Part shown: positions 14,945-62,400 of the stretch, in pieces | Position numbering within the stretch: position 1 is the stretch's first letter | How the letters are laid out: each line of letters starts with the position of its first letter | NCBI GenBank assembly: GCA_963971285.1 | Contig: OZ020255.1 | Coordinates: forward strand, 12,792,931-12,856,930 | DNA length: 64,000 nucleotides | DNA from: Astropecten irregularis | Lineage: Eukaryota; Echinodermata; Asteroidea; Paxillosida; Astropectinidae | Reading direction: 5' to 3' | Made by a program: the position numbers and the translations under genes | Notes under the pieces: generated by a model | Database searches by the model: none | What the model saw: only the letters and a program-made list of their open reading frames with translations | What the model was told of the DNA's origin: nothing

Positions 14945-15085
14945 CAAAAACAAAATACAAGTAACAAATTGCTGCAGACTGCTCATCAGCCAAAATAATG
15001 ACCTGAAATTTATAAAAATCCTTGGAGTTAGGAGTGCCTGACGCGTTTCAATCCTACCAAGATCTTTATCGAAGGCTTATAAAAA
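14945..15085 (-). repeat. Penelope-like element terminal-repeat fragment (solo)
   Basis: It matches, on the minus strand, the terminal sequence of the Penelope-like copy at 60.3-62.2 kb: GCTGATGAGCAGTCTGCAGC, the AGGTCATT word, CCTAACTCC and the hammerhead-like hairpin. No reverse transcriptase sequence adjoins it, so this is a solo terminal fragment. Confidence 0.7.
15035..15076 (-). ncRNA. Hammerhead-like motif in the solo Penelope terminal repeat
   Basis: On the minus strand: GCCT, TCGATAA, one extra A, stem II as an imperfect AGATC..GGATT hairpin, GAAACGCGTC, then AGGC closing stem I with GCCT. Core position 3 is U and position 8 is A, a possible replacement for the canonical C3-G8 pair. 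Position 4 is C, which is unfavourable. Confidence 0.35.
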
Positions 15086-15603
15086 ATACATAGCAAGATA
15101 ATAATGTTCATTGTTATCATACCGTGACGCCATGATGGGCAGATATCTAAGCTTATAATGAAATATAGCCCAGTTCCGTTGATCGGAGCCTACCTTCCCC
15201 CTTCCCCCTTTTTCCGCCACCCTCCACCCCCAAAAATATCTTCTTCCGTCTACGCACGACCACTAAAGCACACACACATATCAAATCTATTGTTGGTTTA
15301 GTGATTACAGCGATTAGCGTACCACTGCCATATACCCTATACAATACTATAGACGAGTTGGGTTCTCTTTTTTTTTTGTTCGGAATCTTTTGTTCGCGGC
15401 AAGTCACCAGAAATGACAGTGTCGCCGCCGCCAGTCCTGGCTTTTCTCAGACGGTGGTATACGGTGATTCATTTTATTCATAGAGCACAGGGGGATCACC
15501 GCAACCAATGAGGGACGCCCCCCCCCCCTCCCCACCCCCGTAGCTGATTCATGAATATTCATCGAGTGCGGTTTGAGTTGGATATCGCATAATACATGCA
15601 ATA

Positions 15604-15872
15604 TTAAAGGTAATATCATACTTTGTTTGTTGTCAAAGAAATGCAGATTCATGACCAAAAACACTACCTTTATAAGGTACTATCATACTTATGTATTTAA
15701 CCAGAAAAGAGTACAAATTTGATTTTTAAACCGTGGGCGTATTTCACTGTTTTCTCAAAAAGTGGGCGCCGTATGTGCCTGAAAATTTCACGGATGACTG
15801 TTACTGTATCTCCCTTGATTTTTTTTGTCCATAAAACTGTATTTCTTTGACAAAAAGTATGAAATTACCTTA
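15604..15872. mobile_element. Rearranged TTAA MITE, CATACTTTG subfamily
   Basis: The left end, TTAAAGGTAATATCATACTT, runs about 65 bp and is then interrupted at TTATAAGGTACTATCATAC by a second end. The right part ends AAGTATGAAATTACCTTAA. It looks like two overlapping or nested copies rather than one intact element. Confidence 0.65.
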
Positions 15873-16469
15873 AAAAACTGTGTATGTGGATACTGTTAGA
15901 GTACTCGTCGCAGTTTGTTACAAATCGGGCCATTAATGTAATAGAACCCCATCTAAGGGAAGAAATTGACAAAATTAAAGTGCTAAATATTGACCATAAA
16001 ATGGCCCTGAACTTCAATCACTGCAGAAACATTATCACTGTTGGGAGTGAGTAGGCCAGACCTATAGTCTAACATTTCACCAAATTTCCAATTATAGACG
16101 TTTTATACAGACCGTTGGCAACTTGTGAAGGAAACTTCTAATTAACTCGTGCAATGCGCTGCGGTCGGGGAAACGTTTTAATCTCCGCTGTGCTATATAA
16201 AATGCTAAAATCCTGAGTCGGTTATTCTCAAATAAAATACTGTGTTTCCAAGGAGGTGGCAGCCGTTCCAGTTTTCCAAAAAATCTGTTTCGCGGATTTC
16301 CGATCTCTCTAAATTTACCTAAGCAGAGTGAAAGAAAATACTTGCATCATACTGTAGTGCACGTCCCATTATTTTCCCATTCATCATTTCATGTCATTTG
16401 AAAGATCCAAAGACTGTTCCATTTATTAGGTTGGTAGGTCCAAGTTCTTCAAAGATTCAAAGTCTAGTA

Positions 16470-16833
16470 AATGTAAGTACAGGATAACCAAACAGAAATG
16501 TTCACAGATTTACTATAACTTTCAGTATATGACTATGGTGATGGTAGAAACATAGGCCCCCTACGGTTAAAATAATTCCGCCTGCCAATGGTGTATTTAT
16601 CCAGAAATTTGTAAAACAAAGACCGAAAATAGTTTCGATCTCGGAGTGAGATCAAAACTCCTGTGAATAGATTTGAAAATACCGTGAGCGTTTTTAACTG
16701 ATTTCTACAGTTTCCGATGATGACCGTGAGCTGACAATTTCACATGTTTGGTTTTATTCCATGATATGAATCAAATTATGAGCAGCCTGCAGGTGTTCTC
16801 ATCTGCTTTACCAACCATGCGTTATGCCTTTAA
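16470..16833. mobile_element. TTAA MITE copy
   Basis: Family words in order: AACCAAACAGAAATGTTCAC, GATGGTAGAAACATA, GGTGTATTTATCCAGAAAT, the palindrome GATCTCGGAGTGAGATC, then CATGCGTTATGCCTTTAA. The left end is degenerate. Confidence 0.7.
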
Positions 16834-17084
16834 TGTCTCTGTGTTTTCAATTTGGGAATTCTTGACAGTCGGGAAGCGGGTTGAGATTTTGACAAATTCA
16901 CTACAAAAATTGTCCCACTTGACTTGTTTTTTTGAGAGGTTAACGGTTTCAGGGAAATACTCAAGCTATTAATGCAAGACAGTACGATCTAAAAACTCAG
17001 TAGGCTGGCGTTACCACGGCTTTTAGTGAAATTTATCTCAAAATGAATATATAAAAATCCGACCTTTTGCAATTGAACTATTCA

Positions 17085-17123
17085 GCCTGTGAAAAAGATC
17101 CTGCTAGGATCGTAACGTCAGGC
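17085..17123 (+). ncRNA. Hammerhead-like motif, degenerate
   Basis: GCCT, GTGAAAA, extra A, stem GATCC/GGATC with a TGCTA loop, GTAACGTC, AGGC. The hairpin and stem I partners are kept, but the core has G at position 3, A at position 8 and GTAAC for GAAAC, so it is probably dead. Confidence 0.3.
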
Positions 17124-18055
17124 CCTCCTAAAATCCAAACATTAGTATTTTTAAACAGAATGCAAAAAGTTGCTGTCGTTATGTTTCGTTAGTCAAAAGT
17201 TGTCTACACGATTCAAAAATCGTAACTACCGACGTTCAACTTGGGATAAAGGTAACCATGTTGTACCTGTCTGTCGTTAGCTCTGATTGTCAAATACAAA
17301 TATTAACACGCTGTGCAAAAGATAAAGGATTTGCAAAGAGTTGAGGTTTCACGTCAAACTTTTGAGGAGTATCCCATCAAAGTGCAACTGAATATACCGC
17401 CCTCTCGTGTTGATTTCTCTGCTATCGCACGGCACCGTTTATACATCACAGGTTAAAAACCACTATTAAGCTTGGTCAGCATTATCCGAGACTGCCCATG
17501 AACTTCTTAAACAATTGTAGGGGAATGCATAGGTGATAATAATGGCCAATTACCAATACCAAGGTTATTCTCTTTTAATTTCATAAAAATGAACTTTCAT
17601 TGGAAATTCGTAAGTGACTTTGCACTTCTTATTTACCATTTCTTCTCCTTACTGAAAAGTACATGGATGTTAGATTTATTTATCACCCATGACACATCTT
17701 TAACCAGGTAACAAGTGCCAAAGTAACCTTAGCCATGGAGCAAATTTTAACGAGGAAATTACTAATGGTGCGAGGTTTGATGCATGTACAGCGAGGGGAC
17801 TAAACTAGCCTGGATTATCATCACGACGACAGTGGGTACCTAGAGTGTCAGTACGGGTATAGATAGCTGATCATTTTCACTAGTAGGAGAGGAACTGAAT
17901 CACAAACTCTGGGCATTTCTCGACATATCACTGGTATCCTCTCGTTTAATTGGATGGCTTGTGAACCGAAACCAGCTGTCCACCGGTATTAACTCACCGG
18001 GAAAAGGGGGAAGGAACGAAGGTTTTTCATCCTAACTGAAAGGTTAGGGCGGTAA

Positions 18056-18362
18056 ACTTATAGGTAATTTCATACTTTGTTTTTTGGCAAAGAAAATGCA
18101 GATTCATGGGCAAACATTTCAAGAAAGATACAACAACAGTCGTCTGTGAAATTTTCCAGCCCCATACGTTGCACAGTGCCCACGTTTAAGAAAAATAGTG
18201 AAAAACGCTGGATTAATATACAGCATTTCAGGCAGAAACATTTTAATGGTATGTTTTTAACGGTATGTTTCTACCATCACTATATTTATACCCTGTGTGT
18301 AATAGGTGAATCTGTGAAGATTTCTGTTTCGGTATGCTACCATAGTTATTACATTGATTTAT
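18056..18362. mobile_element. TTAA MITE, internally deleted
   Basis: It begins TTATAGGTAATTTCATACTT and ends GCTACCATAGTTATTACATT. The central GATC palindrome is missing, and the TACAGCATTTCAGGCAGAAA segment is present. Confidence 0.65.
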
Positions 18363-18599
18363 AAAGTGTATCTTGTATACTTGGCCGGCCAACTTTAACC
18401 CAATTTTGGAGTAAGAGGAACAACAGAAATGCGTCCATGGCTATCTTTAGTGACTCATAAAAGAAATTTGGCTTCTTCTCGGCTACCATAAACTTCCAAA
18501 TGAGGGTAGTTTTCAATACAATGGAATGCGCCTATGTTATTAAAATAACATTTAATTAATTTTATCACATTAATGTTAATGCTTGCATTGGAAATAGGC

Positions 18600-18974
18600 T
18601 TAAAGGTATAATGCATTATTGGTAAAGGTCTCAGAACAGCAAATAACACTTTGACTTATTCAACACATAGGCCTACATTAAAAAACACCTGTGAAAAATT
18701 AAGCTCAAATGGACATCTGAGTCACGAGAAAATAGCGAAAACAGACTCAGGTTTTCTTATAAAACATAAGTTGAGAATGGTTTTGATCTTACCCCGAGAT
18801 CAAAACTGTTTTCGGTATTTGTTTTAGTAATTTCTGGATAAAAACACCATTTCAGGCGTAAATATTTTAACGGTATGTTTCTACCAACACCATCTCCATA
18901 CCCAAATTTATACGTAAATCTGTGAACATAATTATCTGTTTGGGTATGTTACCAATCCTGTACTGTACCTTTAA
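18600..18974. mobile_element. Full-length TTAA MITE, GATTGGTA subfamily
   Basis: It is 375 bp, starting TTAAAGGTATAATGCATTAT and ending CTGTACTGTACCTTTAA. The central palindrome GATCTTACCCCGAGATC is at 18783-18799. It has a TTAA at each end and no coding capacity. Confidence 0.85.
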
Positions 18975-20429: not shown

Positions 20430-20432
20430 CAA

Positions 20433-20465
<33 letters not shown>

Positions 20466-20515
20466 CTTCTTCTTCTCTTTCTTCTTATGATGTCGTTGTT
20501 GCTCTTTTGTTGTTA
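20430..20515 (+). repeat. TTG/TTC trinucleotide microsatellite
   Basis: An interrupted (GTT)n run passes into (CTT)n and back to GTT. It is non-coding in context. Confidence 0.85.
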
Positions 20516-20715
20516 ATTTTATGCGCAAGGAAGATTTTGGTAAAGGCGCTAGCAGTTAGTCACAAGCAATAATATACTCTTCTAAAATTGAAGAGAAAAA
20601 AAACCTTCGCAATTGTAATGTGACATAGACAAATGAAAGGAAAGGTGCAGGCAGGTGCTCACCTATCCGGAGATTCATCATTAATTTACAGCGTTTTTGG
20701 TATCTTGGCACTAGT

Positions 20716-20765
20716 TAGTTAATTAATCGATTGATTGATTGATTGATTAATTAATTAATTAATTA
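20716..20765 (+). repeat. GATT/AATT tetranucleotide microsatellite
   Basis: Runs of TTAA, then four GATT units, then five AATT units, followed by unique sequence. Confidence 0.85.
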
Positions 20766-22049: not shown

Positions 22050-22290
22050 TCACGGGGTCATGAAAATAGTGTTTAAAATCATAACGGAAAAACTCGTAAT
22101 CACGGGGAAGTCAGCTATCGTGGAAAGGTCGCAATCACGGAAAACATACTCACGGCAAGCTGCCTAACAAAAACACGGTCATCACGAAAAAGAAACAAAA
22201 ATAATTACGGAAAAACCAAAACATTTATATCTCAATCACGAAAAAAAAATATATTATCACGGAAAATATGATTCATCACGGAAATAACCT
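22050..22290 (+). repeat. Dispersed ATCACGGAAA-type repeat field
   Basis: Close variants of ATCACGGAAAA (ATAACGGAAAAA, ATCACGAAAAA, ATTACGGAAAAA and others) recur at least eight times in 240 bp with irregular spacing, all on the same strand. It resembles a decayed short-unit tandem array. Confidence 0.65.
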
Positions 22291-23720: not shown

Positions 23721-23799
23721 TAGTAATATTGTTCGAGATCCAATATTACCACTTTGTTACTATAGAAAAGAAAGTATATCATGTTCATTGTACTGCTGC

Positions 23800-24110
23800 T
23801 CCACTGCAGTGTAAGACACAGTCATCTGTGAAATTTCAAGTCCCCTATACGGTGCCCACCTTTTGAGAAAACAGTGAAAAACTCTCACCGTCGGTATTTT
23901 AAAAACTATTCACAGGAGTTTTGATCTTCCTGAGATGAAAAAAAAAAATTGTTTTACTTTTTGTCTGGATAAATACAGCATTTTAAGCAGAAACATTGTA
24001 ACAGTATGTTTCAACCATCTCCATCTTTATACCCTGTAATTAAGTTATAGGTAAATCTGTGAAGATTTCTGTTTCGGTATGCTATACCAAAGGATGACAG
24101 TATACCGTAA
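23800..24110. mobile_element. TTAA MITE, partial
   Basis: Starts within the family near AGACACAGTCATCTGTGAAA and ends with TACCAAAGGATGACAGTATA, a mutated terminal repeat. The central palindrome is decayed (GATCTTCCTGAGAT). Confidence 0.65.
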
Positions 24111-27692: not shown

Positions 27693-27696
27693 TGTT

Positions 27697-31396: not shown

Positions 31397-34300
31397 CTAT
31401 AGCAAAAGAGGAAAAAAACAGCAATGGCTAAATTCTTCAAAGACTCTTCAAATCATCCCCCTCTCCATAACTTGGCCCAGTTTCACGTCCTTCCTTAAGA
31501 CACGGACCACTGCTTTGCAATAACATACAATTCTCAGCTAGGTGTAAAGCGTAATTAATCATTGCGTGTATGAGGAATTTCATCTTGTATATATACACTG
31601 CATGCGCTTTTCGCATACCTCAGCGTTCGAGTCTAATCGAAAAAGCGCGGAATTTCTGCTCAGACACTGTTCACAGGGTCAGAGTAGAGCAGTTTTGCTT
31701 TCTTTCAAAAATAAAGATTTATTTATTTCTCGAATTTGGGTCGAAATATGTCATGCTTGCGTCAAAAAATACAACAGTCCCTCCATAAACTTTACCTTGG
31801 GCCGTTGTGCTCTGAAGGTGTTTCCTGGGCCACGTTGGTGCTGTGACTGTTATACCAATGTCAGCGTTGCACATGGACTCCTTGCAGCACCGGAGATGGG
31901 GCCAGGGAGTAACGGGGACAAACGGCCGCCTGCACGGGGTGAAAACAAACGGAACTCGCTATAAGAACTTTCACATTCGCGGACTTTTGGTTGTGACAGT
32001 AAAGAAAAACGAGCGAACAAAAGAAACAGTTTAATATTTATTCCCTTCCCACCGCTTCCTCAAACGCTGTCAAAATTTAATAATTTGGTACACAAGACTA
32101 TTAAAGGTATAATACAGGATTGGTAAAGAGCACTCACACTCTATCCGTAATCAAACATGTACATGGAATACTAAACTTGTGAAATTTTGAGCTCAGTCGG
32201 ACATCTGAGTCGCGAGAAAACAGCCAAAACCCGACATTTTCGGTCTTTGTTTTACTAATGTCTGGATAAATACACCATTCCAGGCGGAAATATTTTACAG
32301 TATGTTTCTATCAGCGCCATCTTCATACCCTGAACGTAATACGTAAATTAGTGAACATTTCTATTTGGGTATATTTTACCAATCATGTACTGTAATATTA
32401 TTTAACGTTACCAAGCACGTCGTGCTTGATATCGTACTCTGTGGATGAAACACACACCAAGGCGTAATATACCTGTTTTCACACAGCAGCGGCGTTTTGT
32501 CGTCGATGCAGCCTCGCGTAACGGGCGAACTGCCGTCACGCCGGTCCAGGTACTGCGTGTAACATGATGTCACAGCAGTACATGTTACGCGCCCCGTTTC
32601 GTTACAGGCCGGTGTGCTGCAAGCGCAGATGAGTTGACCTGGAAAGACATGAAATACAAACAACTGATGAAATGTTGTGCTATGTGTATTTATGATAGAA
32701 TGTTAACGTTAACTTCAATATTTTGTGCAAATGGAAAAGGTCAACACTAAACATACATAACTGTAATTCAACTACACATTTATCAAACTGGAGTTGTTGG
32801 TCTTTCCCTGGTTAATTAAACTCCTAATTCTTTCAGTGATTGAGAACAAAGAGATACATTTTCCAAAAATAAAAGGGGATTTTTACATGGATCTTGAGAC
32901 AAAAATATCAAACCTATACACAATGTTAAGTGCGATTTCAAGATTGCATATGGACGACATAATATCAAATATCACGTTGTCCCGTTTTAGGACAAGTGAC
33001 GTTAAAAACAAATACATTCGACTGCTAACATAACAAGGCAAAGAAACATAATTATTAAATCTTCATTGACACCCCGACCTCAAAATCCATTAAAGATGAT
33101 AGACATGCAGTTAATTACAAAATATTACATAAAAAAGCCCTATACCCATTCAATTACAATCACATTAAAAACGAGTCCGTCGAAATAAATTAAAGTGCTT
33201 TTATCAAGAGTTCATGACATTCAGAAACCTATAGTCCCTATAACTTGTTTTGTAGACCAATCACGGAGACAGTCTTTTGACTCCACCGGATTATAATTTG
33301 TAATCCTCTTGCCCAAGCACGGTAAATTGTGCAAGATTTGAATGAATGTTTCGGAGGAAAATACAGGATTTCTGATTAAACACGTAGATGAGTATGGGTG
33401 TTATCCCCTGAGAAGGCTGAGATCCACTACAAAACACTGGGAAAGATTTGAAGCTTTGCATAGTGACAATTGGTATATGTGGATCGGTTCGCGGAAACAC
33501 CATCGTTCGTACTTTAATTCGTACTTCTTATTTCGTTCGCATTTCTTCGTATTAAGTCTCAACGTTTCGACTAGCCTGCTCTAGTCATCACCAGGAGATG
33601 GGAGCTAGACGATGACAAAGCAGGCAACTCGAAACGTTGAGACCTTACGAGAAGTGCGAACGAAATAAGAAGTGCGAAAGTACGAACGATTCTTACACGG
33701 CGTTTCCGCAAACCGATCCACATACAAAACACCGATGCCCTTTTCGGCGTCGCCAACAAATTACACAGGAGTATTCTCTATAAGCCAATTAAAACCAAAA
33801 AATAATATGAACGGTTGAACAAAATTGTTACAGCTTGGACCGCACGTGGTGTTTCACGGACACCGTTCACGGACAGAAATCACCAGCGAGGCTTAATCCA
33901 CGGACGAATTGGCAGGGTCGAGGTCACACCAAATTAATTTCCAAATCGATCCCCATAATAAAAAAACAGAGACAAATACAGACACCAATGCTGAGTAATA
34001 ATTCAAGCCGATGGCCCTTCCAAAACAAAAATGTCAAAAGAGATTTTCCCGGAGTCTGCAGACGAGAGCATCAAGCAATTTACATCAAGATGCAATTTGG
34101 GGGAGAGGTTTGGTATAGGACAGTGATACCGTGGCTCGCCAAGGAGATGCATCCTCTTCAGCCGCGCGGCGCTTGGTGTGGGTTGTTTTTTGTGACAATT
34201 ATTTCTCAATTTAGACTCGGTTGTGACTCATCCCCTTAAATAATTATGAGAATGCTGCATGCGACTGATATCAAGATGCTGGACCAGTTCGCCTTATTAT

Positions 34301-37300
34301 ACGCGATGCTACGACCTCCTGCGAGGTCTTAATGAAGTTGCAACCGTCTCAGGCTCCACTCTTCAGTACCTCCCATCAAATAATACACGAACTGAGAGAT
34401 TTCTCCATTCTTTGATGCATTTCAGTCCATAACTACGAGGTTTTGGATACAATGAGATGGATTTTTACCAGTCCACCGAACAAATCCCGCCGTGGATTTT
34501 TTATTCCCGCATGGCCAGGCCGCGGTGGCGTCAACCGGTTGGAAGCTAAAGACTTGTTCGGAGGGTTTCACGATTAACAGTCTGCACAAAAAAAAATCCA
34601 ATCGTATTAACCTCGTTAATACACTCATCAAAATCGATGCTGAAAGCAGCGAGAAGCCTTATACACGTCCAAAGCACTCAACCAGGCTTTTTTGAATGAT
34701 GACAGCTAGACATATTTTGCAGCAAAATGACAAAAGACTGAGTGGTCTGCAGAAAACCCTCTTAAGATACTGACTAGACTTATATGTATTCATTTTTTCT
34801 TTAAATGGACGTCCATGAGTAAAAAACGCATATACAACGCTCAGAGTCTGCACATAAATAGGAGACCGTTATCAACGATCAATTTCTGACTGTACGACAT
34901 TTGGAGCAATTACTGCACGGATTAAAGATGTGATGTCGATGAAATTGGATTTAGTGGAGCTTATGAATTTACTAGACATCAAATATTGGGATATTAAGTC
35001 ACAATTTTCTAAAGAATGGAGATAAAAGCGATATTTAGATGTAGAAAAGCTATTTGGTTTAAAATTGATTCTGCATTGTGACCTGTTAGCAATATCTCAC
35101 AAAGATGTGGTGCCGATTTTGAAATAGAAGAGCTTTTTTATTTACTAGACATTGGAGATTGAGATATTAAGGAACAATTTTTCTAATTAGAATAATGATG
35201 ACTTAAGCATAAAGATGCTGATAGCGAAATTAAGATATAGAAAGCTATTTGGTATGAAACTAAACATGCATTGTAGTATGTTGTTAACATTAAATGGAAT
35301 TACATGTACTTACTGCATGTGGAGTGAAGATTAGTGTCGATGACATTTAAAACTTCTTTAAAGATTAATGACGCACTGGGAACTGCTTACTATTAACGAA
35401 TAAAGATACAATGCAGGTGACATTTTGTACCCTAAAGAGATTAAAGAAATATATTGGGTATGTTTTTGGGGTATGTTTTTTGGTTTAGGAACATTTCGTT
35501 TTACTGTGGATTCAAAAGTATCATTATCAATACCTTTTAATTTTGCAAATGAAACATAAATGTATATTAGCATGCTTTAATAACCGAAGCTGGGGTGAAC
35601 ATTTTGTTTGGGTATAAATGATCAATTAGTTATTTTGGACGTCATAACAAAAATCAAAAAAATTTCCTCAAACTCTGTCGATGCTCTATGCGAAATTTGA
35701 ATTTAACACAAGCTTGAACCGTTATTGATTATGGGCATTTAAATTACGGTATTGGGTCCTAATCATTCACAAACTAACGTGGTCTTCCATCGGGGCCCTG
35801 GGCGTTAAATCATTATGGCCGCACTATAACGAGAATGAATTTAAAACTAGTTAATTATGGCAGGATGGCTCAGAAAACTGTTGGTAGAGCACCTGTACGG
35901 TATTCAGAAGGTCGCCAGTTCGAATGCCGCTCCAGTCAATTTTTCTTAGTTCACCTTTCAATGACAAATCATGCAAATAGGAAATGCAATCACATTAAAT
36001 TGATTGAAAGTGAAAAAAAAACATGGCCAATCATTTTGAAATAAAATGAGAATAAACTAAACCAAGGTGCTTTGAGGTAAAATGGTATAAAGTTCAACCA
36101 AACGGTAACAATCATTACATTGGTTTGTTTTCTGTCACAGTGCATGCATAGAGATGTCAAAGCTGACAGCAAGCCATGAACTTGGACCACCGAACCGCGG
36201 CGCTTTCCCCAGTACCCAAAAATAAACCCGAGGCCCAACCTTGATGAGAATGACTGGGATAACTAGCATGGAGGGAGGGCTACTGATCGCCGCCGGACCC
36301 AAACCCGCCGCACTCAATAACAGTGTCAGAGTATAGTATACGCGAATAACTAACGTTCATGTACAGTACCTGCCTGCTGGGTGACAAGGCAGCGAGATTA
36401 AAGGTACTATCATACTTTGGTAGTATATACCCAAACAGAAATCTTCACAGATTTACATAATTATAACTAATAGGGTATAAAGATAGTGATGGTAGAAACA
36501 TACCGTTAAACGTTTTCTGCCTGAAATGTTGTATTCATCCAGAAAAGTGTAAAACAAATTGACCAAAAATCAATATTTTGAGCTTTGAAGATTAAAATCC
36601 TGTGAAAAGATTTCAAAAAATACCGTGAGCGTTTTCACCGTACTGGGACTGGAAATTTCACAGATGACTGTTACTGTATCTTTCGTGATTATTGTGCCCA
36701 TGACTCTCCATTTGACAAAAACATTTAAAGGAAATTAAAGGTTAATGCACCGTCATAATTATGCGTCTTATATACTGATACACAGGTTGTGTATAAAATA
36801 ATTGGACGGCATGGGTACTATAGAACTGTACAAGTGGGATCAAATATGGACGTTTATTGTGTGCTTAGTAATGAAGGTCATTAAATGACTTTAATATGAA
36901 GTGATATTATAAGCGGCCAAAGCGAGACCCTCTAATGTCGAAAACCGCCCTCTGTTGTTTCAAAGGTGGCAATTATGAGAAGGGTTGATATCAAATTATG
37001 GCGGTCTACATTCAAACTGATATGATCGGCTTGTATAGGGCAACATTTTGTTTTCTTTCATCTTTAATCATCAAATAACCACAAGGGAAACTGCCGACTG
37101 AAATTAAAGTCATTGAAAAGTGAACAAAGAAAATTTACTGGAGCGGGATTAGAACCGGCGACCTCCTGAATACCGTACATGCGCTCTACGTTGGTGGTGT
37201 CCCAAATAGTCAATTATCTTTGTTCTTTTGGCAGTCAGAAGCCAAAGAGGATACGGCTTTTAATCTTTGTAAGATTCTGCCGTATCTAGCGCCCTCTACA

Positions 37301-40300
37301 GTTACACCCCAATCACATGGGAGCACTTTTTACTTTGCTCCACAATGCATTGCTGCGAAAACTACACACTTCTGCTCAATCTGCGAAAAGCCATCTGACC
37401 ATAAGCACACAATCTCGATGCTGTGTCATTCCGATATGAAACCTTACCGTCCCTTTAAAACCTGGACGCACTTTTTCCCTCGGGCACGCGTGCTGTGAAC
37501 GCGCGCCATGACGCTATTAATTTCCCCAATAGTTGGCTCGAACTTGAAGAAAAGTACGACCATACGAACTCCATTAGGGCCTACACAGACCAAACTCGAA
37601 CACAGTCAAACCGCATAGAATGTTACACAGATGGACCATGGACCAACACCGCGGTGGTTCGGGCAAATTATCTCAACTAAACAATATGGTTCGAATTATA
37701 TCATGATTTGTGTTGGCTGGCATTTTTAATAATCATATCAGTAATTGGTCCTTGTTTGTTCTTTCTCGGATCAATCCATCGCTGGGTGGTTTTATACAAA
37801 GTTGGAGTGTTTCTCATTGGTTTCGCAGCTATTACACACGTGATTGGGGAAGGACGAACTGTAACCATCTCAATTTGTCTATAAACAGACATCATACATG
37901 AGTTAACACACCTGCAAAAATTATATAGCTTAATCTGTCAATCGTGTCGTCACGGTGAGAAATAGTGAACATGTTCTATTCTTTTACAGCAATTTTGCGA
38001 GCAATTGTGTGCTCCGAGACATTGAATAATTTTGGTACTAATGTAAATTTGGTTATAATGTCTCAAAAGGTACATTTTTCTGACCAGAACATTTCCTGCA
38101 GAAGGTTTCAATAGTACATGAAATTGGTCAAAGTTAGGAGGGACCTGGCGTTTTTCAGGTCATTATTTGAGTTGATCGGAGCAGTTTGCAGTAGTAAAAT
38201 TAAATGGATAAAACTGCATCTTGAGGATATATCGTATTACCACACATAATTATGTAGCCAGATCTATACCTACAGGCGGTGCGTCGTGTAAGGCCACGTC
38301 GTATTTCCGACTATTAAAAATGGCAAGACGTCACCAGCTGTTATATCAAGCCTGTTTAACAAGACCACTAAGCAAACTCCCCAGACCTGCTCCAAATTTC
38401 TATAAACAGAGGAAGGTGGCAACGGAGGTTCAAGAGAGAGAGAGAGAGAGAGTCTTCAGCTCAATTCAGGGAAAACTGATCCCCAATGTATGGACATTTC
38501 CATCCATTTCTGATTGTGGCAAGTTCCGAGCTGACTGACCCTCCTATAACCCGGCGTCCGGTTCGCCCTTTTGGTACCGGCGACACACGGCATGGTAACC
38601 CGTTGCGAGCGGTCAGCTAGCCACGGTAAATGACACAAAGCTACCCTACAGCGTACGCGGTCTACTATAGTTCTGCAACGTTCAGACGAAATATCGGCAG
38701 GCCATATGGTTATAGGCCTACATCATGCATAGAGAAACAAACCACAGCATGCACCCATTGAAACTGATGCACTCATACTCAAAATAGGCCTACATGCAGC
38801 TCAAATTTTTTACCAGCAGACAACAATATTTTTCTCTTCCGAGCTGGAAGCTCGATGGTTGGGGGAATGTTGACCGGAGCTCCCCCATCACCTCGGCGAG
38901 ACAAACCGGGCCAACCAGCACCCAAACACAAGACAGAAACACGCTAGCAAACATTTTCCTATACAAATTGGCTGTATAACTTTCCCGTACTCTTTAACCC
39001 TTGAATCTTTCTTCGGCCGTCCAAGTGTTTTCCAGAAAAATATTTGAAAAATGAGTACCACTTGCCTTCGTATTTATTCTCACAGACTTCTCCATTTCTT
39101 TTTTTTTGTTTCAGCAAAACGTAAAGTGTATATCAACACGCCACTTAGACTTGTTATGAAGAGGAAGAAACAGAGAGAGAATCTGGCAGACGTATAATAC
39201 TCCTTCTCTTAACGATCAGAATGCCAGGTATTTGTTTGAATTGGCGGGCTGAGTATAGAAGAAATTTGCCACTTCATGATGGCAGGGACCGAAGAACGTA
39301 AACACTCCGTCTTCACAGCGGGGGCCAAGGGGGGCTCCAGAGCCACCGTTTACTGGGGGGTCCCATGGATGAAGGGTGCTTGTGTTATCATTACTTTACG
39401 GTCTTCTAACTTCTCTATAAACAGCGCTACTGAAATGATTCTAAACAAAGTGTCCTGCTGCAATTGCCGGCCGTAGATCTCTCTTTTTTCTCTCTTAAAA
39501 CACAGAACGATTGTGCAACGAATTTCTGTCTCTCAAACTTTCCGGATCCATCTTTTGGTACAAATCATTCGCGGAGGCAGGCTCTGGTTTGTAAAAATGC
39601 AAACTTGACAAGAAAGAGGAAAAGCCATGTAATATTATTTTGTTTCAAAAGGTTCTTATGTCCAAGACGTATTGCCCTGGTCAAGGGGTCAATTTCACCA
39701 AACTCATCGTAACCCTGCTATCAATCGTAGGACTTATGATGCATTGCAGCCCTACGTAGGATACGATGAGTTATCCTTCGTAACTCGAGTTACGTTCGGT
39801 CGTAGAGCTTCGTGGAATCGACCCCAGGGCGATCAATATTAATGTGGGGAATTGCCTCGATATGAGAGGGGCCATACCACAATGTATATGCGACCGCGCA
39901 CTACACTGATGGGTTGCACAAACTGCAGTTTTCTTGGTTTTTTTTTATGGTCAGATTTTGGGACTGTTGTTATAGGGCGTTTACGAAACGGAGGCCCAGG
40001 CTCAGGCTCAGGCTCCAGCACTGATATCCATATGCTGAAAATGATAGGTTGTGGTTTTTCACTGAAGCTGAAGCTCTGTTTTCCTTTTCAAACCAGAGAA
40101 TCTACTTCTATTTTGAGACCAGTTATTTCAGAATGGATTCACGAAATGGAGCCCGGAGCCCGAGACGGAGCCTGAGCCTCGGTTTCGTAAACGCCCGAAG
40201 TCTTACACGTCAGCCAATAAGTAAATCAGGCTTCAAAAAGTTCCAAATAGTTTATAACACCGCAATTACTACTGCCCTCTGCTATAATTCTAGACAAAAT

Positions 40301-52890: not shown

Positions 52891-53982
52891 TCACCTAGTG
52901 GATGTGATGGAATGGCTATGGTGTGGGGATATCATTTGGCATCTGCAGCGGAACATGTGGCCGAATGCCTCTTTGAAGTCCGGGTGAGACGTGGCGTACA
53001 GGATGGGGTTGACGCAGGCATTGAGGAACACGAAGGCTGCCGCGTAAGGCGTCATCCGAATGCTCCAGTCGTACCCCAGTGGGATCACCGCCAAGGTGTA
53101 GGGCGTCAGGCAGACCACGTAGGCCAGGACGATGTAGACCAGGTTCTTGGTAACTGCCACCTGCCTCCTCCAGAGCTTCTTGCGAGTCGTCGTGGCGTAG
53201 TCAGCCGACGATGACCCAGCCGCGGTCACCGCAGCGGAGACGCTCCTAGCGTCGCGCTGTGCCATCCCTCGGGAGGTCTTGAGCACGTACCGGAAAATCA
53301 GCGAGTAGCAGACGGCGATGATGACAAGGTTCAGTAGGTAAATCGCCCCGGCAATGATGTTCAGGAGGTAAGAATGTGGGTTCTTCTTCACCCAGCTGCA
53401 GGTGCTGTACAGAGGTTCGTATCCCAGCTCCCCGACTCCCAATAACGGCGGCATCATCACGACGCCAATCGGTACCGCCCAGGAGAAGATGACCATGCAG
53501 GCGATGGTTCGACGGTTGTAGATGCGGTGGGTGGTGGTTCTGGATTTGGTTATCCCAACGTACCTGTTGACCGCTATGAGGGCTAGATTGGTGACGCTGC
53601 AGAAGGTGCTGCACAGGGTGAAGACGCTGGTAGCCCAGCAGAGCCAGTAGGAGTCCGGGAGTGGCCAGCCGTCCTCACCGAGCACCGCCAGGCCCTCCCA
53701 GGGCAGGAAGGCGCAGGCCAGCAGGTCGCTGACGCTCAAGTTCACCACGAAGACGTTTGTGACGGTGCGGAGTTTCTTGGACAGCGGTACGGCAGCGATG
53801 ACCGCCGTGTTGCCCGCAGTGCCGACACAGGATATGGCAAACAACACCGCCGCCAGTACCTGCCTCTGGTAGCGAAACCTGTAAACCTGAAACAATTCCT
53901 CGGAAATGTAAGTCGTCTCTTCCTCAGCGAAGGTCACGTTCAATTTAACTGTGGAGTTCTCCATGTCAAAATCAGAGTCCAT
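52891..53982 (-). CDS. Class A (rhodopsin-like) G-protein-coupled receptor, orphan
   Basis: A 363-residue intronless frame with seven membrane helices. N-glycosylation sites at N9 and N15. TM1 42-65 with the GN motif (N58); TM2 76-99 with NLSVSD (D86); C115 and C195, the expected TM3-ECL2 disulfide; NRY at 139-141 in place of DRY; TM4 with W168; TM5 about 205-235; a 40-residue third loop with Ser/Ala runs; TM6 with CLTPY (291-295), lacking the usual CWxP tryptophan; NPILY at 325-329; C346/C348, possible palmitoylation. NRY and this TM6 are seen in the melatonin-receptor/GPR84/Tre1-like group, which I favour, but the ligand cannot be told. It sits at the plasma membrane. The first ATG gives a full N-terminus. 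GC content is much higher than in the flanks. Confidence 0.93.
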   Translation of the reverse strand: MDSDFDMENSTVKLNVTFAEEETTYISEELFQVYRFRYQRQVLAAVLFAISCVGTAGNTAVIAAVPLSKKLRTVTNVFVVNLSVSDLLACAFLPWEGLAVLGEDGWPLPDSYWLCWATSVFTLCSTFCSVTNLALIAVNRYVGITKSRTTTHRIYNRRTIACMVIFSWAVPIGVVMMPPLLGVGELGYEPLYSTCSWVKKNPHSYLLNIIAGAIYLLNLVIIAVCYSLIFRYVLKTSRGMAQRDARSVSAAVTAAGSSSADYATTTRKKLWRRQVAVTKNLVYIVLAYVVCLTPYTLAVIPLGYDWSIRMTPYAAAFVFLNACVNPILYATSHPDFKEAFGHMFRCRCQMISPHHSHSITSTR

Positions 53983-54346
53983 ACTGTCTACATACCGACA
54001 AGCAAAGCGACGTCAGGGTGAATGTTAAATTGTCAATCGTATAGATTCTCCATTGTCATGATAAAACTTCAGTCCGATGGAGTGGCGAAACTAGAAACAG
54101 GTAAACAACCGTTTTTAGAACCAAATGGAATGTTGGATTCGTCAATCACTCAGGTTAAAGTAATTTAGCCTCAGCATCCTTTAGTTAAACAACAACAATC
54201 CTTCCGTTTCTCCTTCAACCGAGTAACATCACTCCATCCCATCAATTGCTACTTGGCCGAGAATAATACCGGCAGATGCCATGCAGCGAATGAAGACTGA
54301 ATGAGTTATAGGCCAGATTCTTCACAGGATTAAAATGACGTTGCTT

Positions 54347-56332: not shown

Positions 56333-58588
56333 AAGTTAACTTTTGCAATGATTCTTTTATTAAATTAATCCAATTAAATTATTTATTGTAATAAACGTGG
56401 ATTATACCACCATATATACTACAGGGAATGGTTATATAAGTTATGTTTTCGACAGATGGCAAATGAACATAACCGATAAATGTTTACTACTGGTGTGTCA
56501 TCTTGTAAACTTTTTAATTCATTAAAATGTGTCTTTGCAAAACAAACCCCATCTAATCAATCAGTTTTTTTCTGGAGGAAATAATTTGTTCTCGCACCAG
56601 AGTACAGTCGCGGAACACAAGCTGTGTGCATATCCACTTGACAAAATCCATAACAGAAATGGCATTGGCCTACAAAATATGTCTATCTTGTAATAGGCCT
56701 AATAGAAAATTGCATAAGCACTAAGGTTTATAGAATATGTATTATTGGCTGTTGTGCACTGTGTGATTGGCTAAGTGATAACGCATGTATAAAATCGTTG
56801 AATCTCCGGGCTGCAGACTTCGGCTTGGGCTACTGCTTCGAGTCCCCTCCGCCCTTTTTAAAGTAATGGATACTAAATAATTATAGGCTTTGGAGCCCAC
56901 GGTTTCTATACGTGGATATTCTGAAATCTGATCCTGACGACATAATATTGAGTTTTTAAACTTCAAAGAAAAAAAACCACTACCTGTATTTTGAACGATT
57001 TGGTGACCAAGACTTTACTTTGACCCGGAGAGTAAATATTTGAGAAACCATCTCAATTTTTGTGGGTCAAGTTTGTCTTTCCAGTATTAAATGTCTGCTG
57101 ATTCAGCTTGCATTGAAAAGGCAACCATTTCTCAAAGAGGCTACGTACATAGTGTTTATGTCGGTTTCAAACTGCAAAATAACTCACGCCATTTGGTTTT
57201 GTGTTGTACGTCTTCAAAAAATATCAAAATATGAGATTCATTGTAAAACCGGCATACACGTTGTCTAGTGCTTGTATTCATATTCGCAGATATTCCTGTT
57301 TTGACTTTACAAATAAATGCAGCGCTGTTAATGATAAGAGCTTTCTTAGCTTCGAGTTCTGATTGGGTCATCACGCTTCCATTCTTCAGTAATTCGGACA
57401 CGGATAAAATAACATTCCATTGAATATAATTTTGTTATTGCGCTAAAATTCAACCCAGTTCTGTGTTTATTTCTCTACACGCGCTTCCCAAAACCTAGTT
57501 GTTGGTCCATGTGTCCTCATTTAGGTGAGCCAATGGCACTCGTCACACAAATAGAAATTCAAGTAGGCCAAATAAATGCTTTTTTGAAAACAATCTGTGT
57601 CTCAATAAACATGGAAAGCTTTTCTATAGGCCACTTACAATTATATCACGATTCATAGCAATTGCTTCAATTCACTACTAGTTGGACTTTGGTATAAGTG
57701 TCCAGGGTATGATAAATAGGCAAGGACCATGCAGGGAGATTGTTTTTCGAACGTGTTCGGTCGTTTCCGTACCTGGAAGAACAAACTAATCAAATTTGTA
57801 TTCCGGTAATTTTCATCAAGTAACAAAATGGGGTCGGTGTAAATGTGGGGTTTTTTTTTTGGTCAAGGCTTATTAATCACTTAGGTTTGTTGTGCTGCTG
57901 TATAGAAACTGTGTCACTACTACAAAGGAATGATGAATTAAATTCGATGATGTCTTTTTTGACTAGAAACTACAAAATGGGTGTGCGTTCCCAGTGCCTT
58001 TCATTTTTGGAATGACTCATCTTTGCTCTGATGTATGAACAGCATTTTCTCACATAAGTAGGAAATAGCACTTGAACTCAAAGGAACAGTACACTTTTGG
58101 TGCTTGTTCTTCTTTCAACAAGAGCATTTCAATCCATACCTTTTGTTTTTTAAACTAACCTTAGCAAATGTCATCGAAAATTGCTCTATGTCACGATTTT
58201 CAGAAAACTACAAAATGTTTTTATATAGACTTTATGCATATTTCTATCGTGTTTTATTCAATTTCAATTTCTGCAACCTGAATTTGTTTTTTCAATATGA
58301 CTGGTTTTCTAAGGAAAGTATTTCACAGACTTATATGAGTAACTTAAGAGCGGATTTTCTAGATGGTAAGGACATTTAAATCTAATATAATCTACAAATC
58401 TAGTCATTATGTAAACATTATGTTTCTCATTGTCTTCAGGTCGGTCCAATGGGTTTGTGCCATGAATATCTGATCAGTCTTTACTTGTTGCTCTGTCCAA
58501 ACTCAGGCCTACTGGTTCCAGCTGCTGCAGATTGTAAGGAGATAAAACAGAATAACAAAGGAAGAATGAACATTTCTTTATGTTAAAA

Positions 58589-58700
58589 CCTGTGTGAGAA
58601 AGATTCTCCTATAGGGTTGAAACGTCAGGCTTTCCTAACTCTGAGCATTGTGAATTTTGGGTCATATTCTCATTGGTGAGCAGCTTACAGCAGTATGAAC
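58589..58700 (+). repeat. Penelope terminal fragment with degenerate hammerhead-like motif
   Basis: GTGAGAA, extra A, GATTCTCC..AGGGTT hairpin, GAAACGTC, AGGC, then TTTCCTAACTCTGAGCATT, GGTCATATTCTC and GGTGAGCAGCTTACAGCAG. The order and spacing match the terminal repeat at 62.01-62.12 kb. Core positions 3 and 8 are G and A, so activity is doubtful. Confidence 0.6.
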
Positions 58701-58730
58701 TACATGGATGTATAAGTTGGAGTTGGAGTT

Positions 58731-58943
58731 GTTAAGCACAAAAAAACTGCTTAGCACAAAATGTCTTGCTCAATAAAACAAACCACCATTTGATATTCAT
58801 GGTCAGCGAATACTAGCCAAAGAACAATCACGAGTGATACACAACACCTGAAAATTTGGCTTTTATTCTGTTTCATTATAGTACGACAGACATTTCCTGG
58901 TTAGCAAATTTTTGTGCTAACAAGGCTATGAAATTCGCCCCGG
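58731..58943. mobile_element. MITE, GGGGCCAATTTCAT family
   Basis: TTGTTAAGCACAAAAAAACT at the left, CTATGAAATTCGCCCC at the right, and the internal words ATTTGATATTCATGGTCAGC and GTGATACACAACACCTG match the copy at 51976-52202 on the opposite strand. Confidence 0.75.
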
Positions 58944-59170
58944 TTCACAAACGCCACAAGTTAACTTTGTTATCATTACAAAATGATTACTGGTTTACAA
59001 GGCTTCTTTTTAAGCAATCAAGTATTAAACTGTTGGATGAATTGTTGAGTTGTTTGTTGTTAATTGTTTGTTGGTTGTTGTTTGTGATTGAGTACTACAT
59101 GTATATGAGAGAGTAGTACTAGTTTTGAGAGCCAGGTGTATAGATTCTGAATATCTATGACAGGAATCAG

Positions 59171-59493
59171 TTAATTCAAGTATGCTAAGGTTTTGGGAGT
59201 GTCAACCGTACCTTCGTTGGAGCAGACTGCCTCTCTACACCGGCACTGACCGATGACGGCCAGAGGGGCCTGGGTGGTGCTACCATCCGGGCAGGTCAGG
59301 GTAATCAGCTCCAGGGACTCTACCACACCACGGCAGCAGCTACAGTCCTGCTGCATGTAGGGTTCCATCAGGATGATGTGAGACCTGGAACGGCAGTGAC
59401 CATCGCAGGAGGAGACATTGACGCCGTGGGCTATGCAGCCTTGCTCGTTGGTCACTGTGCGAGTCTCATGGATCAAGCTACAAGCTTCTGGCT
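59171..59493 (-). CDS. SSPO-like: SCO-spondin-like last exon: C-terminal cystine knot
   Basis: Acceptor CGTATATCAG|AG, preceded by a tract of about 13 T; phase 1; stop TAA at 59171-59173. It encodes a cystine knot of about 95 residues (ACSLIHE, GCIAHGVN, CDGHC, CSCCRG, LTCPDG, CRCREAVC), the dimerisation module at the C-terminus of SCO-spondin, mucins and von Willebrand factor. A short non-conserved tail follows. A donor-like GTACGG just after the knot is the alternative end. Confidence 0.88.
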
Positions 59494-62400
59494 CTGATAT
59501 ACGTAAAAAAAAAAAAAAGATTGTACATATGAGGGAAAACAACACTCTATGAGTATTCAAAGTCAACATAATCTGTTGTAAATTAGCATGTATGTATCTC
59601 CCTGTTCAAGGAGCAGATTGACTTCATACTCATGTGAAGAACAGCAAATGTGCAGCATCAAGTATGTGGTGCAAGCCCATTGATGTATAAACAGAGGGAC
59701 ACTGTCACAAATCTTGCCCCAAACATAGGGGGTTTACGAAATGGAGGCTCAGGTTCAGGCTCCAGCTCCATTTCATGAATCTATTCTAAAATAACAGGTA
59801 TCAAAATAGAGGCATTTAACTGCAGTTCAGAAGTAGATCCTATGGTTTGAAAAAGAAAACAGAGCTTCAGCTTAACCATAACCTATATTTTCAGCATAGG
59901 GATGACAGAACCGGAGCCTGAGCCTCCGTTTCGTAAACACCCCTAGTGGAATGAAAAGCAGCTGAATATAAAGATGGAGCCAAAGTAGATGCTTTGAGGC
60001 AAAGGCTTTTTGCTTGACTGTCCCTAGATCTCATACCTGATACTCTGCGACACACTGGACAGCAGTCACCCTCCTCAAAGACTGGTGCATACCCCTGGGA
60101 CAAAGACAATGAACCATTAGAAATCATAAGACAAAGGCTTGAAGGAAAATATAATATGTAATTATTCCATACAAATTGCAGATTTCTTATTATATATTTG
60201 TGAGCTATTCCAAAAAATTGTCCCATTATCTGCTTCTTTGTGGAACTGCCTGGTGCATGTCTGGTCCATGTTTCACTTCAACCTATAAACTATACAAGTA
60301 ATAAACTGCTGCAAACTGCTCATCAGCCAAAATATTGACCTAAAATGTATAAAATAGTTGGAGTTAGGAGGGCCTAACACATTTAAATCCAGGAGTGGAC
60401 ATACCACACCTCCCATCCGTGATCTTGAATCTCTCATGAAACTTGTACTAACTAAAAATAACTTCTCCTTCATGGATAAACACTATCTACAGGTACATGG
60501 CACAGCAATGGGAACCCGCATGGCCCCCTCCTTTGCATGCATCTTCATGTCAGAACTAGAAGAGCGCATGCTAGCCTCAGCACCTTGCCGCCCCTGGATC
60601 TGGTGGAGGTACATTGATGATGTATTCTTTATCTGGACCAGTGATGAGAATAGCTTAGGTTCTTTCATTAACCACATGAATTCTTTCCACAGGACTATCA
60701 AATTCACAGCAGAAGTCTCTCACCATGAGGCCCACTTCCTTGATGTCACCATCCGAAAGGAAGAGGACACACTAATCACTGACCTGTATTCTAAGCCCAC
60801 AGATACCCACCAGTACCTCCATGCCACCAGCTGCCACCCCAAGCACTGTAAGACTGGTATAGCATATAGTCAGGCCCTCAGACTCAGACGAATCTGTTCT
60901 AATGACTCCGATTTCTCCAAACACACACAGGAACTGAAGAAACACCTAGTTGCAAGAGGCCACAGCTCTCGCAGGGTGCGGAGTGCCATTGAGAGAACTC
61001 GTGCTCTTCCCAGAGCGGCAGTTCTCCAAGAGAAAGCCCCCAGCGATGATTCTTGTACTAATAACAAAGTTGCTCTTGTGACTACTTTCCATCCCTCTCT
61101 TCCCCCATTACGCAGAATCACTAATGATAACCATCACATTCTTCACACTTCAGACCGTCTCCTCAGGGCTATCCCAGAAAAGCCCATCTTGGCCTACAGA
61201 CGTCCCCGCAACCTCCGCGACTTGATTGTCAGGGCTGAGGTCCCACCCACTAATAATGTCTCTTCCCCAATCCAGCATGGCACATTCAAATGTAACTCTA
61301 GATGCGTAGTCTGCCAGCACCATATCCATGAGTCTGATTCTTTCACAGGCAATGGCTCCACCCATAAGACCAAAGGGAATATTACCTGCACTACATCTAA
61401 TGTCATTTATCTCATTTCTTGCAGGGTATGTAACATACAGTACGTGGGTGAAACCAAAAACACCCTCTAGAAACGTTTCTATGGTCACCGGTCTACAGTA
61501 AAAACTCAGAAACTGGACACCCCAGTGGGTTTTCACTTCAATCTCCCTAACCATACAATTTCTGATATGATCTTGCAGGGCATTGAATCACTTGGCCACC
61601 GCAGGGACTTGGTCCGGCAGAGCAGAAAGAAAGTTTGGATTAAGAAATTACGCACTATTCAGCCGAACGGACTAAACCTCCAGGAAGGCAATGACTAATA
61701 TTCTTCTCCTTTTCATTCATCCACAGGTACTCTCTAATCCCTCCTGATTTTTGTATTCCTCTCCTCCCTCTTGCCCATCTTGATCTCCAATCCTCTAATT
61801 AACTCCTTTGTTAATCCCCCACCCCCAGCACCACACTTTCCAACCCCTTTTGTAGTCTGTTACCTTTGATCTTGCCTACCGGACCCCCACCCTTTGTCTG
61901 ACCTATCTTACCCACCCTGACTCTCATACCACCCCTTCCCTTTGTCCATATCCTCTGATCCATTTTATGTATGCTTCCTTCACTTGCATGTTTGTGTTTT
62001 TTTGTCATATAGCCTTTGAGAAAGATCCTGCTAGGATCGAAACGCGTCAGGCCCTCCTAACTTTAAGCATTTGATATATTTCAGGTCATTTTGGCTGATG
62101 AGCAGTTTGCAGCAGTTTATTACTTGTATTGACATTTAAATCCTAGCAGGATCTTTATTTAGCCTTTGATAAAGATCCTGCTAGGATCAAAATGCATCAA
62201 GCCCTCCTAACTCGAACCTATAATCCAGACAGTTTCAAGAAAAATGTCAATTCCTATATTTTTTGCAACCCTGAATTTCTGCAGCTTCTTACCTAGATTG
62301 GCAATAAGCCTTGTTAGGGGCAAACATGCATTATACAAAATAAGAACTGTCATGTTGACACTGGTTTGGAAGGGTTGGTTGCTATTTGGAGCGCCCTCAT

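Follow-up and report, generated by a model that had tools for sequence, protein, structure and literature searches.

Minimal type I hammerhead ribozymes of Penelope-like elements (PLEs) were reportedly described by Cervera and De la Pena in 2014, and Lunse et al. in 2017 are said to have observed dimer cleavage by minimal PLE hammerheads. Work on minimal type I PLE hammerheads by Cervera and De la Pena and by Lunse is cited in PMC6155905, PMC7761336 and PMC10085705. PLEs with minimal hammerheads that lack helix III in their pLTRs are reported in the first two of these sources, and minimal type I hammerheads of PLEs are also reported in PMC11167929. As described there, they resemble the family presented here in lying at the pLTR, having a reduced stem III and occurring in tandem. 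The Poseidon PLE PAc of Anolis carolinensis has a hammerhead at the pLTR-ORF junction, a tail, a GIY-YIG domain and a reverse transcriptase (RT), like the element below, but its ribozyme has C3-G8, unlike the family in our window (PMC11167929). According to the same source, RT starts 111-118 bp into the PAc ORF, well beyond the ribozyme cut at 26 bp into the ORF. It also reports a match between the PLE tail and Anolis RT start sites, and that endonuclease recognition by the Penelope element of Drosophila virilis required the tail. Ribozyme mutants of the Anolis element are reported to insert in vitro all the same. The arrangement of PLE frame, inverted pLTR, tail and target-site duplication (TSD) that we see at 60289-62214 is described for Penelope elements in PMC3846280; this paper, which covers Pen2a and its Penelope relatives in Adineta vaga, does not contain the words ribozyme or HHR. 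A change from C3-G8 to U3-A8, as in the window family, was reported as covariation in several natural hammerheads by Perreault et al. 2011, who remark that ribozymes covarying at positions 3 and 8 are active in vitro (PMC3088659). When double mutants of a type III hammerhead were later screened, exchanging C-G for G-C was reportedly the only change at 3-8 that rescued.

The window, meaning the whole stretch analysed, is 64,000 nucleotides of Astropecten irregularis DNA. A first-pass annotation had proposed five hammerhead-like motifs in it, and all five are present with a hammerhead layout:

15036-15077, minus strand: motif 15035, with U3, A8, U4C and loop CGCG
17084-17123, plus strand: motif 17085, with G3, A8, A13U and loop CG
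58587-58630, plus strand: motif 58589, with G3, A8, two extra bases 5' of position 3, a seven-base loop II and loop CG
62011-62052, plus strand: motif 62012, with U3, A8, the extra A, A15.1 and U16.1 bridged by loop CGCG, and a predicted cut after 62048
62161-62202, plus strand: motif 62162, with U3, A8, G12A, loop TGCA and a C-A mismatch in stem I, placed within the element's 3' tail

Stems I and II surround the core as in a minimal type I hammerhead. All five pairs of stem II are intact in every copy, and stem I has 4/4 pairs in three copies and 3/4 in two (62162 and 58589). As annotated, A8 and one extra base before stem II, an A, occur in all five motifs, and alignment confirmed U at position 3 in three (15035, 62012, 62162) and G in two (17085, 58589). 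Judged by the descriptions of known minimal PLE hammerheads, the window family would differ from them in A8 (5/5) and in U3-A8 (three copies). Position 3 also follows loop length, U3 being found with CGCG or TGCA and G3 with CG, a correlation that the annotation did not contain.

The minimal type I core CUGANGA ... GAAA ... UH is not matched by 62012 (UUGAGAA+A ... GAAA ... UC), which differs from the consensus at two sites, as a pair, and is standard at all remaining core positions. The other four copies deviate further, with other core lesions, so that 62012 is the sole copy without any. The copies show five stem II substitutions, two of which fall at a CpG, and every one retains G-U pairing. 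TGCA in place of CGCG at 62162 was not counted as a compensatory change because two CpG decays yield the same result. In energy folding, 62012, 15035 and 17085 form the proposed stems I and II, and 62012 and 15035 gain two further pairs within the core; 62162 adopted the proposed form partly and 58589 folded otherwise. The two-strand form predicted by energy folding pairs via the stem II hairpins, not via stem III alone.

The motifs are homologous beyond chance. In ungapped comparison, 62162 and 15035 each share 37/42 positions with the 62012 42-mer and 17085 shares 32/42, and the maximum in 40 Markov resamples was 26. Motif 58589 matches at 25 positions only when ungapped and was absent from the blastn output at E 0.1; aligned with gaps to the pLTR it scores 100, compared with 35 for the best of 1000 resamples. 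A strict hammerhead descriptor allowing any base at positions 3 and 8 found 62012 alone on the two window strands and gave one match in total in 60 resamples. Rfam produced no hammerhead match in the window at E 1, and none to 62012 at E 10 with 60200-62300 or 61980-62080 as the query. Even the canonical copy of a control PLE (see below) reaches just 16.7 bits with the Rfam hammerhead models, against a cutoff of 52. Sub-threshold Rfam matches in the window to microRNAs and CRISPR repeats were taken as plain hairpin matches.

Motifs 62012 and 62162 belong to a PLE insertion, whose frame the first-pass annotation had not mentioned:

60280-60288, no strand: left copy of the 9-bp TSD, AACCTATAA, from flank comparison
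60289-62214, plus strand: 5'-truncated PLE insertion with TSD, inverted pLTR piece, RT/endonuclease (EN) frame, pLTR and tail
60292-60390, minus strand: inverted piece of pLTR at the 5' end of the element, including the 3' half of a ribozyme motif
60448-61467, plus strand: C-terminal part of the RT and start of the GIY-YIG domain
61471-61695, plus strand: remainder of the GIY-YIG endonuclease past the stop
62011-62129, plus strand: 3' pLTR, which starts with motif 62012 and ends ACTTGTAT
62130-62158, minus strand: inverted partial motif, the left palindrome arm with 62162
62215-62223, no strand: right copy of the TSD, AACCTATAA, from flank comparison

In a control with flanks of equal lengths, a common 9-mer occurred in 28 of 20000 random pairs. 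The 60448-61467 frame, interrupted by an in-frame TAG at 61468-61470, is identical to a full-length PLE frame at 109/346 aligned positions (E 3e-52), and 61471-61695 shares 24/73 positions with the EN end of that PLE (E 2e-8). Pfam matched 60448-61467 to RVT_1 (E 1.4e-4, under the curated cutoff) and to GIY-YIG (E 0.046, below cutoff); 61471-61695 gave an unrelated match only (E 0.25). Despite one stop and the 5' truncation, the element has the PLE-type RT and C-terminal GIY-YIG of an EN-containing PLE, at 32-33% identity to the full-length PLE, and it has the 9-bp TSD, the 3' tail and pLTRs, including a partial inverted copy at its 5' end. The inverted piece at 60292-60390 is 100% identical over 42 nt to 62088-62129, and 78% for 60336-60390. 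On the minus strand, 14954-15077 and 60292-60375 are 85% and 88% identical to the 3' pLTR, respectively. The half copy at 62130-62158 starts no more than one base away from the predicted cut; this start is suggestive at best of a cut-site signature, at roughly 2-3 in 40 by our estimate. It also reads A8, which, with A8 in the five full copies, bears out the annotation's view that the master copy already had this base. The 3' tail (about 62159-62214) carries motif 62162, and the insertion ends 16 nt beyond its predicted cut.

Other fragments of the family are scattered through the window:

14954-15077, minus strand: solo pLTR fragment with motif 15035, from homology
17084-17129, plus strand: tail fragment with motif 17085, from homology
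38153-38209, plus strand: pLTR remnant without a full motif, local score 52
58587-58710, plus strand: most diverged pLTR fragment, with motif 58589, from gapped alignment

No common flank of at least 6 was found for 14954-15077. The homology of the 17085 fragment stops near CCTCCT, like the 62162 tail, about 10 nt past the predicted cut. Given these ends, the template RNAs of 62162 and 17085 were probably not cut at that copy. AAAATCC flanks the 17085 fragment at 17054-17060 and 17130-17136 and may be a weak case of duplication; a 7-mer is common to such flanks in 1365 of 20000 random pairs. The score of 52 for the remnant is above 35, the ceiling of resamples for another target. Directly before it, about 38132-38150 resembles an inverted motif end. 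This remnant (near 38132-38209) and the half copies at 60292-60390 and 62130-62158 were absent from the first-pass annotation.

An outside control PLE with an open 765-aa RT-EN frame was found at two places on LJHE01000041.1, a contig deposited as Epulopiscium that is presumably host-fish DNA. Its hammerhead has C3-G8, the extra A, a 5-bp stem II, a 5-base loop and the two-base loop CG. It is like the window family in the extra A after A9, the 5-bp stem II with 5-base loop, GAAACG and the RT-EN frame, and the core letters outside the hairpin (UGA, AA, GAAACG) are common to both. In contrast to the window family, it has C3-G8, the cut site GUU and, in folding, a stem I lengthened by an outer helix; the two RT-EN sequences are just 32% identical over the aligned part. 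Since this C3-G8 ribozyme has the extra base too, that base is not special to the window family.

Searches of contigs for further relatives gave little. A pattern with 21 fixed bases had 0 matches in viral contigs and 0 in genome contigs. A looser pattern had 0 matches in viral contigs and 10 loci in genome contigs, two of which, on the same contig, are the control PLE. Seven others fail the stem test, and one (L009) passes it and lies antisense within an 809-aa bacterial frame, so it was taken as chance. A search of the genome of locus L008 returned only the two places of the control PLE. A PLE protein and a PLE alignment gave 2 and 229 pattern stretches in viral contigs, 0 of them confirmed. 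Two gap patterns each hit at least 120 loci in viral contigs, and among the 240 matches listed none passes the full stem test; these results are uninformative on the frequency of U3-A8.

The control PLE and all window copies except 58589 were aligned to assess covariation. In this set of five, standard pairs fill 48 of the 50 cells, and 4 of 10 pairs, namely 3-8 plus three in the stems, differ from the control PLE on both sides. In 500 shuffles, which ignore kinship, none reached the standard-pair count, the double-change count or the covariation score, and 78 reached the number of pair types. The double changes rest on one outside sequence, so each counts as one event. Position 3-8 is unpaired in 17085, which was included, and with 58589 there would be a further unpaired 3-8 and a mismatch in stem I. 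Paired changes at 3-8 and in the stems, which the annotation had raised, are seen, all of them against a single sequence. Its proposal that U3-A8 stands in for C3-G8 is plausible, as both sides change relative to one canonical PLE.

Layout, stems and PLE association support a hammerhead-type family, as first annotated. We conclude that the five motifs are very probably minimal type I hammerhead sequences of one PLE family, with ancestral A8, U3-A8 in one subfamily, possible dimer cutting and later decay. Homology, layout, association with a PLE, A8 in every full copy and an extra A common to one canonical PLE hammerhead are direct observations. The motifs sit at the 5' edge of the pLTR and in the 3' tail of the family, and their RNA would fold into stem I (GCCU/AGGC), stem II (GAUCC/GGAUC) and a stem III of just ACGCGU or ACGU. 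Since both are palindromes, two motifs could pair at stem III. Paired motifs may then cut as a dimer after GUC, the mode reported for the PLE hammerhead class, and free unit-length RNA. Judged from the sequence, U3-A8 may cut, and cleavage may matter for transposition. The family ancestor would have had A8, with U3-A8 a compensated replacement of C3-G8 in the four-base-loop subfamily; the copies would have decayed post-insertion, and 62012 alone retains an otherwise standard core. Because 3-8 changes on both sides against the C3-G8 control, U3-A8 looks like a compensated ancestral change within one subfamily.

A stronger version, in which the master ribozyme combined a fixed, selected U3-A8 with the extra A and a greatly shortened stem III and still cuts as a dimer, with a G3-A8 sister subfamily that lost the pair, strikes us as doubtful. 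If true, a natural double substitution affecting the general-acid nucleotide would have stayed active along a retroelement lineage. The ribozyme stretch shows no detectable excess conservation over the rest of the pLTR (5/42 vs 8/76, p 1.00; 6/40 vs 21/74, p 0.17; 9/40 vs 22/77, p 0.52), and with lesions in 4/5 copies, the selection suggested by the annotation finds no support. The annotation had offered a selected variant or decay; these options do not exclude each other, and the best fit is an ancestral variant that later decayed.

The closest rival is that the ribozyme was dead on arrival: the master was already inactive through A8, U3 was a chance second change, and the sequence was retained via the common source only. 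This agrees with the preferred reading on PLE and hammerhead descent, activity being the only difference, and we regard it as a serious contender, if somewhat less than probable. A8 in all copies, G3-A8 in 2/5, the further lesions in 4/5, the lack of detectable excess conservation and the type III screen, in which the reported rescue was by the G-C swap only, all favor an inactive master. However, the only two changed core sites of 62012 pair together and still pair, for which chance is about 1 in 200 (1/66 x 3/9; post hoc), and the 5/5 stem II substitutions preserve G-U pairing, though two are at a CpG.

Alternatively, the hairpin could be retained in pLTR and tail for protein recognition, as an RT start or endonuclease site, rather than for self-cleavage. 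The role of the PLE tail in the Anolis RT start and in Drosophila virilis endonuclease recognition (PMC11167929) fits this, as do an insertion end 16 nt and another copy's homology end about 10 nt past the predicted cut. We nevertheless consider it unlikely: the reported Anolis RT start is 111-118 bp into the ORF and the ribozyme cut at 26 bp (PMC11167929), and a plain hairpin would not need the UGA, AA and GAAACG shared with a distant PLE. Far less probable is a non-autonomous animal retrozyme, with 62012 and 62162 flanking a circularising unit. With a spacing of 150 bp, these tandem motifs just reach the 150-450 bp reported for metazoan retrozyme repeats (PMC7229834), but an RT/GIY-YIG frame lies upstream within the same insertion, where a retrozyme would have tandem non-coding units without RT. 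The second motif also closes the insertion at the TSD, and the two motifs are separated by an inverted piece. Chance hairpins are refuted: the motif is short, and 58589 alone is within chance ungapped, but the homology of 15035 and 58589 runs on through the pLTR, and the descriptor scan, Markov resamples and gapped-alignment resamples all oppose this explanation.

These findings are mostly expected, as the PLE-borne hammerhead motif is known and U-A for C-G was previously reported in other hammerheads. A family that kept transposing with an altered 3-8 pair offers a natural test of the role of PLE hammerheads. Should U3-A8 cut as a tandem, the compensation would suggest selection on the ribozyme. 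If it does not cut, the element would have spread without a ribozyme, matching the in vitro insertion result in Anolis.

The five hammerhead-like motifs in the window (15035, on the minus strand, and 17085, 58589, 62012 and 62162, on the plus strand) were read directly and then set in one common register. The first-pass annotation was right that A replaces the canonical G at core position 8 in every copy, and its account of position 3 also holds, with three copies (15035, 62012, 62162) carrying U there and the other two (17085, 58589) carrying G. All five pairs of stem II are intact in all five motifs, and its five one-sided changes (two in 15035, three in 58589) each keep a G-U pair. In place of stem III, 62012 and 15035 have the loop CGCG, 62162 has TGCA, and both 17085 and 58589 have CG. 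U3 is associated with the four-base loop and G3 with the two-base loop; loop length and position 3 point, from five copies, to two subfamilies. Ungapped identity was 37 of 42 for 62162 and 15035 and 32 for 17085, with a maximum of 26 in 40 resamples. Only 25 was reached by 58589, which was absent from the blastn matches; its gapped alignment scored 100, compared to a maximum of 35 in 1000 resamples. Chance is excluded as the source of the likeness among the motifs.

As judged from sequence, the motifs are putative ribozymes of the known hammerhead system of Penelope-like elements (PLEs), whose terminal repeats (pLTRs) and coding frame lie in the window as follows.

15035, minus: motif in a solo pLTR
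17085, plus: motif in a tail with little besides
38153-38209, plus: pLTR remnant
58589, plus: motif in the most diverged pLTR
60292-60390: inverted pLTR piece, outer end complementary to the 3' pLTR at 42 of 42 positions
Left of 61468, with a stop there: PLE frame, 32% identical to a full-length PLE polyprotein (E 3e-52)
Beyond the stop at 61468, before the 3' pLTR: remaining endonuclease part
62011-62129: 3' pLTR, with motif 62012 at its head
62130-62158: inverted partial motif between the 3' pLTR and motif 62162
62162, plus: motif at the right end of the insertion, predicted cut 16 nt before the insertion end

The insertion at 60289-62214 is bordered on both sides by AACCTATAA; a 9-mer common to both flanks occurred in 28 of 20,000 random flank pairs. 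The description of a Penelope element of Adineta vaga includes a pLTR in inverted orientation, a tail, a 9-bp target-site duplication (TSD) and palindromes at inverted junctions (PMC3846280). Pfam matches of the PLE frame to RVT_1 (E 1.4e-4) and GIY-YIG (E 0.046) were both below the curated cutoffs, and no PDB chain matched it at E 0.001. The start of the inverted partial motif at 62130-62158 lies no more than one base from the predicted hammerhead cut site, which would fit copying from the end of a cleaved RNA, and a short palindrome from self-priming would look alike. At about 38132-38150, before the pLTR remnant, the sequence resembles an inverted motif end, another head-to-head junction.

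Either side of the insertion are minus-strand frames with cystine-knot/DAN-like and TIL domains (59174-59605 and 62412-62819), which may be exons of a single cysteine-rich secreted protein that has the PLE in an intron. Elsewhere, the minus strand holds a 373-aa open frame of a rhodopsin-type GPCR (52894-54012; 7tm_1, E 1.1e-37), an 84-nt hairpin (33558-33641) scoring 31.4 bits with a microRNA model, below the cutoff of 77, and a histone 3' stem-loop-like hairpin (6686-6731; 30.7 bits, cutoff 34). Several dispersed repeat families occur in both orientations, e.g. 3675-3862 with 5508-5695 and 23961-24102 with 36405-36546.

Beyond the 3-8 pair, only 62012 has an otherwise standard core. There is a C at position 4 in 15035; 62162 has an A at position 12 and one mismatched stem I pair (C-A), and 17085 a U at position 13 with G3-A8 unpaired. 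In 58589, G3-A8 is also unpaired, two bases are added before position 3, loop II is longer and stem I has an A-C mismatch. Read off the sequence, G12A, the C11.1 changes and CGCG to TGCA are all at CpG sites and look like ordinary decay. CpG decay gives no obvious origin for the changes at positions 3 and 8, since no copy has a C at position 7 preceding A8, and the base after position 3 is T or C.

A pattern search allowing C or U at position 3 and G or A at position 8 found ten loci in 84,980 prokaryote genomes, two of them on one contig, LJHE01000041.1, deposited as Epulopiscium, an inhabitant of surgeonfish. This contig (loci L007, L008, L011 and L012) carries a tandem PLE with canonical hammerheads and two open 765-aa frames for reverse transcriptase and GIY-YIG endonuclease (RT-EN); because of the tandem PLE with open RT-EN frames, it is presumably DNA of the fish host, i.e. 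host contamination. Its motif, TTGCGC CTGATGA A GACCC CTAAA GGGTC GAAA CG TT GCGC (our spacing), has the same additional A and short stem III as the window motifs but canonical C3-G8. The additional A between A9 and stem II, listed earlier as a shared feature, is indeed present in all five window motifs but is no mark of their family, since this distant PLE has it. A viroid hammerhead is also known with an additional A at the same place.

Covariation was assessed with four window copies and this outside PLE; 58589, whose indels spoil the register, was omitted; with it, the alignment would contain a further unpaired 3-8 and a mismatch in stem I. Standard pairs fill 48 of 50 cells, and both sides are altered in four of ten pairs, namely two stem I pairs, one stem II pair and the 3-8 pair (n = 5 sequences). 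None of 500 shuffles matched the paired cells, both-sided pairs or covariation score, and 78 matched the number of pair types; the shuffles ignore kinship, and with a single outside sequence each double change is one event. In 62012, the two of 12 core sites off consensus are the two pairing sites, still paired (chance about 1 in 200, post hoc).

Differences in the ribozyme stretch compared to the remaining pLTR were 5/42 and 8/76 for 62012-15035 (Fisher p 1.00), 6/40 and 21/74 for 62012-58589 (p 0.17), and 9/40 and 22/77 for 15035-58589 (p 0.52). These three copy pairs, the only ones sufficiently long, gave no sign of additional constraint on the ribozyme stretch. Of the earlier proposal of a selected variant or the decay of a common ancestor, the ancestral part probably holds, with A8 the likely ancestral state, and selection finds no support in these pairs.

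Two motifs in the element RNA would pair via palindromic ACGCGU or ACGU into a two-motif hammerhead, which would cut after GUC; the available text on the PLE class describes such a palindrome-paired form cutting after GUC (PMC7761336). Energy folding, with the core outside the model, found stems I and II for 62012, 15035 and 17085 and folded 58589 otherwise; two strands paired mainly via the stem II hairpins. Homology of 17085 is lost about 10 nt beyond its own predicted cut, with a weak 7-bp flank repeat (1365 of 20,000 random pairs). With the insertion end 16 nt past the predicted cut of 62162 and the end of homology about 10 nt past that of 17085, these templates were probably uncut at that copy. 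This agrees in kind with the Poseidon PLE of Anolis carolinensis, whose main substrate is unprocessed RNA. Ribozyme mutants of the Anolis element left insertion unaffected, and its cleavage was seen only together with the element's protein (PMC11167929).

The core swap has precedent: several natural hammerheads are reported with U3-A8 in place of C3-G8, along with the remark that ribozymes covarying at 3 and 8 showed activity in vitro (PMC3088659). A double-mutant screen of a type III hammerhead rescued only the change from C-G to G-C at 3-8, and in the Anolis PLE a C3G/G8C swap partly restored cleavage (PMC11167929). Among the hammerhead papers listed by a text search for the pair, which covered work other than the primary PLE-hammerhead papers, the spelling U3-A8 did not occur. 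Our reading of the window copies is an ancestor with A8, a four-base subfamily in which U3-A8 would be a compensated change, and genomic copies that then decayed.
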